A DNA stretch of 11,000 bases, taken from Holdemanella sp. (GTDB lineage: Bacteria; Bacillota_I; Bacilli_A; Erysipelotrichales; Erysipelotrichaceae). Below the pieces are notes generated by a model. That model was given only the letters and a program-made list of their open reading frames with translations. It was not told the origin of the DNA and did not search any database. The position numbers and the translations under genes were made by a program. Shown here piece by piece: positions 7,557 to 11,000 of the stretch. The DNA lies in contig JABUSD010000221.1 in NCBI GenBank assembly GCA_021442845.1, forward strand, positions 1-11,000. Reading direction: 5' to 3'. Numbering within the stretch: position 1 is the stretch's first letter; each line of letters begins with the position of its first letter.

Positions 7557-10010
7557 ATGGTTAGTTTTTTTGAAAAGCTATTCTCTGAAGAAAAAAGAGA
7601 ACTTGAACAACTAGAAAAAATGGCAGACAAAGTCATTTCTTATGAACCTGCAATGCAAGCATTGTCAGATGATGAATTAAGAAATAAGACTGCAGAGTAT
7701 AAAGAACGTCTAGCAAAAGGTGAAACAGAAGATGATCTTCTTTATGAAACATTTGCCACAGCTAGAGAAGCAGCTTATCGTGTCATTAATGAAAAGCCTT
7801 ATAAGGTACAGATTATGGGATCTATCGCAATGCACAAAGGCGATATTTCTGAAATGAAGACAGGTGAAGGTAAAACCTTAACCGCAACAATGTGTGTTTA
7901 CTTAAATGCATTATCAGGAAAAGGTGTTCATGTAATTACGGTTAACGAATACTTAGCTGGTCGTGATGCTGCATGGATGGGTGAAATTTACCGATTCTTA
8001 GGATTGAGCGTTGGTGTAAACAAGCGTGAATTGACACCAGAGGAAAAACGAGCCGCTTATAATTGCGATATCACATATACAACAAACTCTGAATTAGGAT
8101 TTGACTACTTGCGTGACAACATGGTTACAAGTGTTAGAGAACGTGTAATGCGTGGATTGAATATGGCTATTGTCGATGAAGTTGACTCTGTATTAATTGA
8201 CGAATCACGTACACCATTGATTATTTCTGGTGGAAAGAAGAAAACTGCAAATCTTTATATTGCAGCGGATAACTTTGTAAAGACATTGGTTGCTCCAGAA
8301 TATGAAAGAGATAAATTCACAAATGAAAAGATTCTGGTATCAGGTGACTATGATATTGATGAAAAGACACGTCAGGTCATGCTATCGGAAGATGGATGTC
8401 ATAAAGCAGAAGCTTTCTTTAAAATCAAGAACCTTTATGATATTGAACATACACAATTGGTTCACCATATCAACCAGGCACTTCGTGCAAACTATATTAT
8501 GATGCGTGAAGTCGAATATGTGGTAAATGATGAACAGGAAATCGTAATCGTTGACCAGTTTACTGGACGTATGATGCCAGGACGTGCGTATTCAGATGGA
8601 TTGCATCAGGCAATTGAAGCAAAAGAAGGTGTACCAATTAAAGAGGAAACATCTACATTGGCAACCATCACATACCAGAACTTCTTCCGTTTGTATGACA
8701 AGTTAGCAGGTATGACTGGTACTGCAAAAACAGAAGAAGAGGAATTCCTTTCAACATACAATATGAAGGTTGTATGTATTCCAACAAATGTTCCTGTCAT
8801 TCGTGAAGATTTAGATGATGAAATCTATGCACACAAGGAACACAAGTTCAAAGCCCTTGTAGAAGAAGTAAAACGTCTATATGAAAAAGGACAGCCAGTC
8901 CTTGTTGGTACAATTGCGGTAGAAACGTCTGAATTGATTTCAAATTTATTGAAGAAGGAAAAAATCCCTCACCAGTTGTTGAATGCGAAAAACCATGCAA
9001 AGGAAGCTGAAATCGTTGCTCTTGCTGGTCGTCCAAAATCAGTTACAATCGCAACAAACATGGCTGGACGTGGTACCGATATCAAACTTACAGAAGAGTC
9101 ACGTAAATTAGGTGGTTTAGCTGTATTAGGTAGTGAAAGACATGAATCTCGTCGTATTGACAACCAGTTACGTGGTCGTTCAGGACGTCAGGGAGATCCT
9201 GGATTCTCTAGATTCTATATCTCATTGGAAGACTCATTGATGGTTCGTTTCAGCGGTGATAAGATTCAGAAAATGTTTGATAAATTTGATTATGAAGCTA
9301 TCCATTCAAAGACAATCACAAAATCAATCAGTTCTGCACAGAAACGTGTAGAAGGGTATAACTTTGATATGCGTAAACAGCTTCTTGATTATGATGATGT
9401 ATTACGTCGTCAACGTGAAATCATCTATGCACAAAGAAATAAGATTCTTGAAAGTGAAGAAATTCATGATACAGTACAAGCTGTTTTCAAATCTACAATT
9501 GAAAATGTTGTAAAGGCAAATCTATCGGATCCAAAGAAGATGACAGTAGATGCAGAAAGTCTTGCACAGTCATTGTCTGTAATGGGTATGACAGAAGAAA
9601 AGGCAATTCATGCCAGTGAATTGACGGGTAAGAAATTTGAAGAAACTGTAAATTACTGTTTTGATAAGGTTTGGGGAGAATACGAAAAGGAAATCGAACC
9701 TGTTAAGAGCCAGTTCCTGCCATTTGAAAAGACAGTTGTACTTCGTAATATCGATAGAAACTGGATCAATCACATTGACAGAATGGATAAGTTAAGAAGT
9801 GGTATCTATCTACGTTCTTATGCACAGAACAATCCGCTTCAACAATATGTTGAAGAAGGATTTGATATGTTTGATGAAATGAACAATCGTATTAATAGAG
9901 AAATTACACAATTCCTATTAAAAGTTAGAATCCGTAAAGAAGAACCTAAGAATCCTGCTCTAGAAGCTGCCAAAGCAGCCGCTAAGAAGAGAATTAAAAA
10001 AGGTAAATAA
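7557..10010 (+). CDS. secA: Preprotein translocase ATPase SecA
   Basis: Motor ATPase of the general secretion pathway, pushing unfolded preproteins through SecYEG at the membrane. The 817-aa protein has the Walker A motif GEGKT (103-107), TTNSELGFDYLRDN (175-188), DEVD (207-210) in NBD1, and SRTPLIISG. The preprotein cross-linking region follows, then GRMMPGRAYSDGLHQ. In NBD2 lie ATNMAGRGTDI (499-509) and RGRSGRQGDPG (539-549), then helical scaffold and wing domains. It ends in a lysine-rich tail (residues ~800-817) and lacks the C-terminal CxCx8CH/C zinc motif present in E. coli (901 aa) and B. subtilis (841 aa) SecA. AAGGAGGAA at 7543-7551 supports the start. The stop shares one base with the prfB ATG (TAATG). 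Confidence 0.98.
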   Translation: MVSFFEKLFSEEKRELEQLEKMADKVISYEPAMQALSDDELRNKTAEYKERLAKGETEDDLLYETFATAREAAYRVINEKPYKVQIMGSIAMHKGDISEMKTGEGKTLTATMCVYLNALSGKGVHVITVNEYLAGRDAAWMGEIYRFLGLSVGVNKRELTPEEKRAAYNCDITYTTNSELGFDYLRDNMVTSVRERVMRGLNMAIVDEVDSVLIDESRTPLIISGGKKKTANLYIAADNFVKTLVAPEYERDKFTNEKILVSGDYDIDEKTRQVMLSEDGCHKAEAFFKIKNLYDIEHTQLVHHINQALRANYIMMREVEYVVNDEQEIVIVDQFTGRMMPGRAYSDGLHQAIEAKEGVPIKEETSTLATITYQNFFRLYDKLAGMTGTAKTEEEEFLSTYNMKVVCIPTNVPVIREDLDDEIYAHKEHKFKALVEEVKRLYEKGQPVLVGTIAVETSELISNLLKKEKIPHQLLNAKNHAKEAEIVALAGRPKSVTIATNMAGRGTDIKLTEESRKLGGLAVLGSERHESRRIDNQLRGRSGRQGDPGFSRFYISLEDSLMVRFSGDKIQKMFDKFDYEAIHSKTITKSISSAQKRVEGYNFDMRKQLLDYDDVLRRQREIIYAQRNKILESEEIHDTVQAVFKSTIENVVKANLSDPKKMTVDAESLAQSLSVMGMTEEKAIHASELTGKKFEETVNYCFDKVWGEYEKEIEPVKSQFLPFEKTVVLRNIDRNWINHIDRMDKLRSGIYLRSYAQNNPLQQYVEEGFDMFDEMNNRINREITQFLLKVRIRKEEPKNPALEAAKAAAKKRIKKGK

Positions 10011-11000
10011 TGGAACTATATGAATTGAAACAAGGAGTTAGTACTCACCTAGAGAAGTTGCATTCTTTAGGTGAGTCTCTTTGACTTAGACGTTAAAAAG
10101 GATAAGGTTGAAGAACTCGATCATATGATTATGCGGGATGATTTCTGGAATGATCAGAAAAAAGCACAGACAATCATTCGAAATCGAAACGCATTAAAAG
10201 AAATTGTTGATAAATACGAAGAATTAAGTGCTCAATTGGATGGGCTGAATGAAACAGCGGATGTATTGAAAATAGAATTTGATGAAGAGCTGATGGAAAT
10301 TGCAGCTGAGGATTTCAATGATGCTACATCAAAACTGGAAGATTTTGAAATACAGGTATTATTATCTCATGAATATGATCAGAACAATGCGATTCTAGAA
10401 TTGCATCCAGGAGCAGGAGGAACAGAAAGCTGTGACTGGGTCAGCATGTTGTATAGAATGTATACCCGCTATGCTGAAAAACATGGTTTCAAGGTAACCG
10501 TTCTTGATTATCAGCCAGGGGATGAAGCTGGAATCAAATCCGTAACATTCCTGGTGGAAGGGGATAAGGCATATGGATATCTTAAATCCGAAAAAGGAGT
10601 CCATAGACTGGTTCGTATTTCGCCATTTGATGCTGGAGCTAGAAGACATACATCATTCGCATCCTTAGAGGTTATGCCACAGTTTAACGATGAAATCGAG
10701 ATTGATATCAAGCCAGAGGATTTGATTGTTGAAACAAAAAGAGCATCAGGAGCTGGAGGACAGCATATCAATAAGACAGACTCTGCGATTCGTATGGTGC
10801 ATAAGCCAACAGGAATTGTGGCAACATGCCAGAATGGAAGAAGCCAGCATGAAAATCGTGAAGAAGCATTGCGAGTGTTAAAATCGCGTATTTATCAATT
10901 ACAGATTGAAGAACAGGAAAAGAAATTAGCAGAAATCAAGGGGATTCAACAAGCCAATGAATGGGGTAGCCAGATTCGAAGCTATGTCATGCATCCATAT
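10010..11000 (+). CDS. prfB: Peptide chain release factor 2, programmed +1 frameshift, 3' end beyond window
   Basis: RF2 recognises UGA and UAA stop codons and triggers peptide release. The first frame runs from ATG 10010 through 24 codons (MELYELKQG...GESL) to an in-frame TGA at 10082-10084. Shifting +1 at CTT (10079-10081), with T10082 skipped, opens a frame to the window end: 306 more codons starting Asp-Leu-Asp. The merged protein shows 330 of about 365 residues. The stop-codon reading tripeptide SPF is at 204-206 and the catalytic GGQ at 249-251, matching the usual RF2 positions and confirming the frameshift. ELHPGAGGTES is also typical. The ATG overlaps the secA stop by one base, with a modest AGG at 10001-10003 in the end of secA, so translation is probably coupled. 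Autoregulation is expected: low RF2 makes the TGA pause longer and favours the shift. Confidence 0.97.
10043..10076 (+). promoter_or_regulatory. prfB: 14-bp RNA stem-loop inside prfB, covering the frameshift-stimulating Shine-Dalgarno
   Basis: The left arm ACTCACCTAGAGAA (10043-10056) pairs with the right arm TTCTTTAGGTGAGT (10063-10076) across a 6-nt loop GTTGCA; 13 Watson-Crick pairs and one G-U. The right arm contains AGGTGAG (10069-10075), the internal Shine-Dalgarno-like sequence of the frameshift site, and ends 2 nt before the CTT slip codon. It is not followed by a T-tract, so it is not an intrinsic terminator. A role in modulating the frameshift or in secA/prfB mRNA processing is inference. 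Confidence 0.6.
10069..10085 (+). promoter_or_regulatory. prfB: Programmed +1 frameshift site of prfB
   Basis: Elements in order: Shine-Dalgarno-like AGGTGAG (10069-10075), TCT, the slip codon CTT (10079-10081), stop TGA (10082-10084) and C (10085), matching the CTT TGA C core known from E. coli and most bacteria. The SD-like A is one base further from CTT than in the E. coli AGGGGGTATCTTTGAC arrangement. Confidence 0.95.

Follow-up and report, generated by a model that had tools for sequence, protein, structure and literature searches.

A conserved hairpin directly behind the prfB slip site of Erysipelotrichaceae as a probable stimulator of the +1 frameshift

What drives the +1 frameshift in a prfB gene that carries no Shine-Dalgarno (SD) sequence at the customary place, and whose nearest SD-like sequence is buried in the arm of a hairpin? 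The stimulator of the RF2 shift is described as an SD in a 2016 review, which gives 3 nt as the SD spacing for +1 shifts (PMC5009743), and a Flavobacterium study reports that the RF2 mechanism depends on mRNA-rRNA pairing (PMC8710568). In a 2025 survey of 12,753 genomes, the RF2 SD is called hyper-conserved, and the main text of that survey has no match for "hairpin" or "secondary structure" (PMC12421855). The window, that is, the whole 11,000-nt stretch of Holdemanella sp. DNA analyzed here, poses the question through the following features:

7557..10010, + strand: secA, directly 5′ of prfB; its stop codon overlaps the prfB start
10010..10084, + strand: prfB zero-frame leader ORF, from ATG to the in-frame TGA (24 codons plus stop)
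10043..10056, + strand: hairpin 5′ arm (ACTCACCTAGAGAA), from sequence, fold, and covariation
10057..10062, + strand: hairpin loop, 6 nt, from the fold
10063..10076, + strand: hairpin 3′ arm (TTCTTTAGGTGAGT), from sequence and fold; 2 nt (CT) before CTT
10069..10074, + strand: AGGTGA, SD-like, from sequence; wholly within the 3′ arm
10079..10085, + strand: slip site CTT T plus weak stop TGA-C (CTTTGAC), from sequence
10083..11000, + strand: RF2 body in the +1 frame, running off the window; PCRF and RF-1 domains (Pfam)

The gene was identified as prfB by the Pfam domains PCRF and RF-1 in the +1 frame. Its ATG (10010-10012) shares the letters TAATG with the secA stop, and its codon 25 is an in-frame TGA directly after CTT (CTT at 10079-10081, TGA at 10082-10084, and the following C at 10085). 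Since the zero frame is closed by this TGA and the RF2 body lies in the +1 frame, full-length RF2 requires a +1 shift. The locus has in common with the canonical RF2 cassette the TGA right after CTT early in the ORF, the slip sequence CTTT, the C after TGA, and the RF2 body in the +1 frame. What differs is the upstream element: the canonical cassette has AGGGGG or GGAGG three nt before CTT, which the window lacks, having instead an upstream hairpin with a shifted AGGTGA in its stem. Counting the C of CTT as 0, AGGTGA spans -10 to -5, leaving an edge-to-edge gap of 4 nt to CTT; aligned on the 16S tail, its register lies about 4 nt upstream of the canonical one. In stacking terms only, 16S pairing in the canonical register has a median of -5.3 kcal/mol in the window's genus versus -14.5 kcal/mol in Bacillaceae and relatives, and AGGTGA in its shifted register reaches -12.0 kcal/mol. 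A strong SD-like AAGGAG also occurs at 10032-10037, 5′ of the hairpin and 42-47 nt before CTT, a distance that exceeds the +1 rule; the sequence CAAGGAGT upstream of the hairpin is common to several relatives and the window.

An earlier note on this DNA had described a 14-bp stem with one G-U pair and a 6-nt loop, ending 2 nt before CTT TGA and holding the SD-like letters in its 3′ arm, and had suggested folding it computationally. Both the stem (10043-10056/10063-10076) and the position of AGGTGA were confirmed, the last paired base being at -3, so that a stable hairpin ends beside the E-site codon of the +1 site. Folded alone, the 34-nt hairpin has -20.3 kcal/mol (z -7.2), and the 71-nt region has -27.6 kcal/mol (z -5.75); in both cases, 0 of 200 dinucleotide shuffles were equally stable. 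The 71-nt fold additionally offers an extended stem, CAAGGAG (10031-10037)/CTCTTTG (10077-10083), which by eye is unconserved in relatives and would also lie beneath a ribosome positioned on CTT; it was set aside. Rfam 15 gave no match at gathering score on either strand of the window's 11,000 bases.

For comparison with relatives, 198 of the 257 family genomes with a prfB match were used (175 plus 6 frameshifted and 17 without a slip site), together with 83 loci from 75 genomes of family f8, in which 108 of 116 genomes have a prfB match; these loci give 71 distinct leaders, identical leaders being counted once throughout. Leaders of f7, f12, and f19 were picked by hand, mostly for an open frame suggesting a frameshift, and form an uneven sample. 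Two rows were dropped (L260, mis-anchored; L273, truncated), L143 and L145 have no resolved leader, and L178, which has no pipeline leader, was read by eye as CTTTGAT plus a hairpin of the g74 type. A base other than C after TGA, in contrast to the usual TGAC, is seen as CTTTGAT in L178, L368, and L414 and as CTTTGAA in L019, L347, and L354. A leader of the window's genus equals that of Floccifex porci letter for letter over 102 bases (L007, L042), which places the window in an Erysipelotrichaceae bacterium close to Floccifex; named genomes with a window-like hairpin include Holdemanella biformis DSM 3989, Faecalicoccus acidiformans DSM 26963, and Catenisphaera adipataccumulans DSM 25799.

Folding in excess of coding constraint was assessed over the last 51 nt before CTT against 300 variants per leader, in which amino acids were fixed and codons redrawn from local usage. 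All five leaders from the window's genus, one of them the window's own, fold at p<=0.01 (median z -5.79), as do 62 of 149 distinct Erysipelotrichaceae frameshift leaders (median z -2.24; counts non-independent through kinship). Among leaders with a canonical SD, none of the 48 controls from Bacillaceae and relatives reaches p<=0.05 (median z +0.39), and neither the 20 of family f12 (median z +0.41, one at p<=0.05) nor the 13 from Erysipelotrichaceae itself (median z -0.37, one at p<=0.05) show an excess; the two f7 control leaders have a median z of +0.73. The excess is weak in g2 (2 or 3 of 19 at p<=0.05) and absent at that threshold from both leaders of g71. Of the 90 significant family hairpins, 88 have their last paired base at -1 to -7 (0-6 nt before CTT), a count in which folds were cut at -1, making structures that enter the slip site invisible.

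The ATG stands exactly 69 nt before CTT in 167 of the 175 frameshifted family leaders, and the leader alignments are accordingly gapless. Stems occupy four registers: A, the window's, with 40 distinct leaders from 21 genera; A2, with 26 leaders of genus g31; B, with 9 distinct leaders (10 loci, picked by hand) of g17, g20, g25, and g66 and its last base at -7; and C, with 27 leaders of g2, g18, g20, g30, g50, g58, and g63. Registers A2, B, and C each retain their own stem. Pairing in register A is kept in 399 of 400 cells over the ten outer pairs and less strictly over the four inner ones (17 to 36 of 40 intact). Pair -29/-10 of that register occurs as UG (12), UA (10), AU (9), CG (8), and GU (1), broken in none of the 40 leaders, and the codon containing -29 encodes Leu, Gln, Ser, or Arg; as the amino acid varies and the pair is kept, pairing outlasts the peptide.

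The earlier note had proposed compensatory changes in the two arms among relatives as a check, and these were found in all four registers. On RF2-body trees, 13, 3, 6, and 6 double-compensatory changes were counted for A, A2, B, and C; when the registers were displaced by up to 6, the counts were 0-4, 0-1, 0-1, and 0-1. Inferred changes to or from a mispair numbered 37, 11, 1, and 4, of which 36 of the 37 in register A fall in the four inner pairs. Tree-aware simulations, with the per-column number of changes equal to that observed, matched the observed pairing in 0, 1, 22, and 0 of 3000 runs. The registers and their members were chosen after inspection of the folds, so that these tests are only partly confirmatory, and they left out g7, g19, g23, g24, g60, g62, g72, and g74. 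In a separate count on 21 distinct rows, paired cells, double-change cells, and covariation score were each reached by 0 of 500 shuffles; the same count gave no excess in pairs with a double change (254 of 500 shuffles) or in further pair types (372 of 500). When the whole family was scanned without registers and with random placement of events on the tree, none of 2145 column pairs was significant, a result that was judged to reflect a signal hidden by the mixture of hairpin registers and a wide null. Compensatory change across genera suggests that it is the pairing, rather than the sequence, that matters.

Related leaders do have most letters in common, and an LG(D/E)SL-like peptide ending occurs also without a frameshift, as would be expected if the structure had arisen by chance from a conserved peptide and shared ancestry. 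Against that explanation, which is hardly credible, both the synonymous-codon and the tree-aware nulls are exceeded, clades differ in hairpin register, and amino-acid changes in the 5′ arm preserve pairing. It is nearly certain that the hairpin is a genuine and conserved RNA element.

What this element does was approached through its relation to the SD. SD classes were assigned by pairing at fixed registers with an assumed sequence of the 16S tail (anti-SD), which is unchanged in 10 of 26 genomes, including those of SD-poor g31, g50, and g63; the other 16, including the window's own fragmented genome, have no exact match. The 155 distinct Erysipelotrichaceae leaders comprise 13 with a canonical SD, 73 with GGTGA, 42 with little or none, and 27 in between, with median fold z of -0.37, -3.15, -1.84, and -2.27, respectively. 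The commonest state is GGTGA plus a hairpin: GGTGA leaders have p<=0.05 structure in 51 of 73 cases, and GGTGA was found in 34 of the 53 Erysipelotrichaceae genera examined, in some of which the hairpin is weak. Most leaders have a strong hairpin with its end at -2 to -8 in 1 of 7 genera with a canonical SD, 26 of 34 with GGTGA, 11 of 12 with a weak SD or none, and 7 of 9 in between (one genus may enter two classes); by leaders, such hairpins are present in 110 of 155 from Erysipelotrichaceae, 6 of 48 in the Bacillaceae control, and 0 of 20 in f12. A pooled rank test of canonical versus weak or no SD gives p of about 1e-15, a descriptive value that ignores shared ancestry. A FastTree phylogeny of RF2 (103 rows; 35 of 100 inner branches weak) requires the SD class to change 11 times and the hairpin state 13 times, and neither therefore looks as if it had changed only once.

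Covarying stems of their own, accompanied by at most a weak SD in the customary position, are found in g31, g66, g17, g2, g18, g30, g50, g58, and g63, and folding evidence, outside the register tests, gives g74 a strong stem without an SD. Hairpins at p<=0.05 accompany a weak or in-between SD in all examined leaders of g66 (4/4), g74 (2/2), g63 (2/2), g20 (3/3), g52 (3/3), and g25 (2/2), in 15 of 26 leaders of g31, and in single leaders of g18, g30, g50, and g58. The arms of two SD-less hairpins are as follows:

g66: 5′ arm GCCAAGTT, 3′ arm AACTTGGC
g74: 5′ arm GTCTTCAAGC, 3′ arm GCTTGAAGAC

The structure, covariation, and position of the hairpin, and its persistence without an SD, are thereby demonstrated. 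Since the hairpin is significant where the SD is weak and absent where the SD is canonical, it probably does the job of the SD. In g31 (e.g., L175-L176), the 12-nt hairpin loop contains an SD-like TTGGAG about 15 nt from CTT; its GGAG lies beyond the 3-nt rule for +1 shifts but may still act.

The earlier note had read the hairpin as a device that hides the SD, and a version of this reading would have AGGTGA-16S pairing drive the shift while the hairpin competes with it, attenuating the shift or sensing ribosome spacing or secA-prfB coupling. AGGTGA, wholly within the 3′ arm, is indeed able to pair with the anti-SD, prfB starts inside the secA stop codon, and some of the 34 genera with GGTGA have weak hairpins. 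Hiding, however, predicts hairpins only where an SD is present, and this prediction fails: in registers A2, B, and C, where an SD to hide is weak or missing, the stems are conserved and covary, and the leaders with a strong canonical SD show no hairpin excess. Two natural experiments point the same way. Leaders of g52 come in two forms, CACTC...GGGTGAG and CACTC...GAGTGAG; in the second, the SD is weaker and U-A stands in place of a U-G pair, with pairing retained. In group Y of family f8 (7 leaders), eight pairs are intact in 7/7 although AGTGA or AGCGA replaces GGTGA in 4 of the 7 (GGTGAC versus AGTGAC or AGCGAC), the SD being weakened and -28/-9 kept as U-A instead of C-G. The conserved stem of the earlier reading thus stands, concealment of the SD as its main role is not supported, and attenuation is quite unlikely.

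Family f8 also holds a group X of 32 leaders, in which a 7-bp stem with three covarying pairs is retained and the SD letters are only CGGGTC-like; its stem ends at -12, away from CTT, and 4 of the 32 reach p<=0.05 against the synonymous null, compared with 18 of 71 distinct leaders in f8 overall. Because groups X and Y were delimited by letter patterns, some of their pairs were set in advance (-33 to -30 in X, -33 to -31 in Y); the covarying pairs all lie elsewhere.

The SD letters of the window's clade are themselves well conserved (GGT in 37 of 40 leaders, AGT in 3). Another reading is that shifted SD and hairpin both act there, or that the SD dominates in that clade and the hairpin suffices only in SD-poor genera. 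The 73 of 155 leaders with GGTGA, 51 of them structured at p<=0.05, are in keeping with it, as is family f19, whose four leaders (L355-L358) have GGTGAT and little or no hairpin (median z +0.46). On the other side, AGGTGA misses the canonical RF2 register by about 4 nt, though its 4-nt edge spacing comes near the reported 3 nt (PMC5009743), and this arrangement as the whole account is unlikely. GGTGAT likewise accompanies a weak hairpin in the 11 leaders of g60 (L262-L272; median z -1.3). GGTGAT before CTTTGA with little hairpin or a weak one was also observed at L310 and L313. A shifted SD might therefore suffice alone, and in these leaders it may form a separate variant.

Genes without a slip site provide a further comparison. 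The 17 such prfB genes have a median fold z of -0.18, a value that rests on nine of g65 (9 of 9 genomes; L274-L282), which show no fold (z -0.81 to +1.28). Among the other eight, L223 (g31) and L248 and L256 (g2) fold at p<=0.05, L140 and L141 (g72) and L169 (g63) lie at p 0.06-0.08, and L183 and L215 (g31) show no excess fold, so that the slip-site losers are a mixed control; the slip site may have been lost recently in those that fold, or the fold may serve something else. In the sister family f2 (G036-G059), the prfB open frames are about 368-384 aa, as expected without a frameshift, and the one leader inspected (L030) has no slip site.

Stable stems may protect mRNA or be cut, and the earlier note had offered, as its alternative, an RNase processing or stability element between secA and prfB. 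A hairpin of this kind, or one that pauses ribosomes, would have no frameshift role; its location just within prfB, downstream of secA, and the persistence of the fold in L223, L248, and L256 accord with that. Such an element does not explain why the 3′ end is held at -1 to -7 from the slip codon (88/90), the hairpin is missing where a canonical SD is present, and the nine g65 genes without a slip site are unfolded. It is a very improbable sole function.

On the strength of the sequence comparisons, the most likely role of the hairpin is to stimulate the +1 shift, either as a substitute for SD-anti-SD pairing or together with it, a reading to which we assign a probability of about 0.6. We infer both the stimulation itself and the zippering step described here. 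The hairpin directly behind the slip site would be the main stimulator of the prfB +1 cassette. A ribosome reading the leader would melt it; once CTT occupied the P site and UGA the A site, the upper stem would lie outside the ribosome and refold, and the lower stem would try to zip toward the E site. Were RF2 scarce, the ribosome would wait, the peptidyl-tRNA would release, and the closing helix would pull the mRNA back by one base, moving the ribosome forward from CUU to UUU. The hairpin helix would in this way occupy the place that the SD-anti-SD helix has in E. coli and Bacillus. For the window's clade, AGGTGA, the shifted SD in the stem, may add to the effect of the hairpin; in other genera, the hairpin appears to act with little or no SD. 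The refolding imagined in the earlier note is thus placed where alone it would be possible, behind a ribosome standing on CTT. A trailing ribosome close behind would hold the hairpin open, and some dependence on ribosome spacing, which the earlier note had suggested, is possible.

In the open-licence PMC literature, no natural hairpin at prfB was found, and only work on engineered upstream hairpins is relevant. Bypassing in T4 gene 60 is a long hop, of 50 nt, whereas here a cellular autoregulatory gene is shifted by one base. The likeness to gene 60 lies in its 5′ stem, proposed to act as a motor that pulls the mRNA by closing at the mRNA exit (PMC5009743). E. coli dnaX is similar in that an upstream duplex and a hairpin both affect frameshifting, and differs in that its shift is -1 and its hairpin downstream (PMC5009743, PMC6321510). 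Closest are the engineered SD-mimic hairpins (Huang, Cho and Chang 2018; PLoS One 2013), which, like the present one, are stable and juxtaposed to the E site. With E. coli 70S, an engineered hairpin upstream of CUUUGA reached about 60% of the activity of an internal SD, with an effect that scales with stability and appears only without RF2; its stem has 12 bp, compared with 14 bp in the window (PMC6321510). That work used reporters with designed or coronavirus-derived hairpins (PMC6321510, PMC3639245), whereas the hairpin described here is natural and conserved in prfB. PRFect, whose authors suppose quite generally that lesser hairpins upstream of frameshift sites may have gone unnoticed, anticipates the idea of an upstream hairpin but names no such prfB (PMC10885494).

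The RF2 frameshift is the textbook case of mRNA-rRNA pairing that steers an elongating ribosome. The balance of the comparative evidence tips slightly toward a history in which at least two bacterial families swapped the SD-anti-SD helix for a helix within the mRNA, the shift being mechanical and the anti-SD no longer needed; the hairpin would have been rebuilt in several registers, and intermediates with both elements would survive, the window's clade among them. If the hairpin is indeed a natural replacement, this would suggest that what matters is a helix at the edge of the E site, and not the strand that serves as its partner. Such sites may be overlooked or misread by searches that rely on an SD plus CTTTGA. 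Slip-site losers are useful natural knock-outs, and the Erysipelotrichaceae and their relatives would offer many natural constructs, with SD only, both elements, or hairpin only, in which to test what force on the mRNA does to the reading frame.
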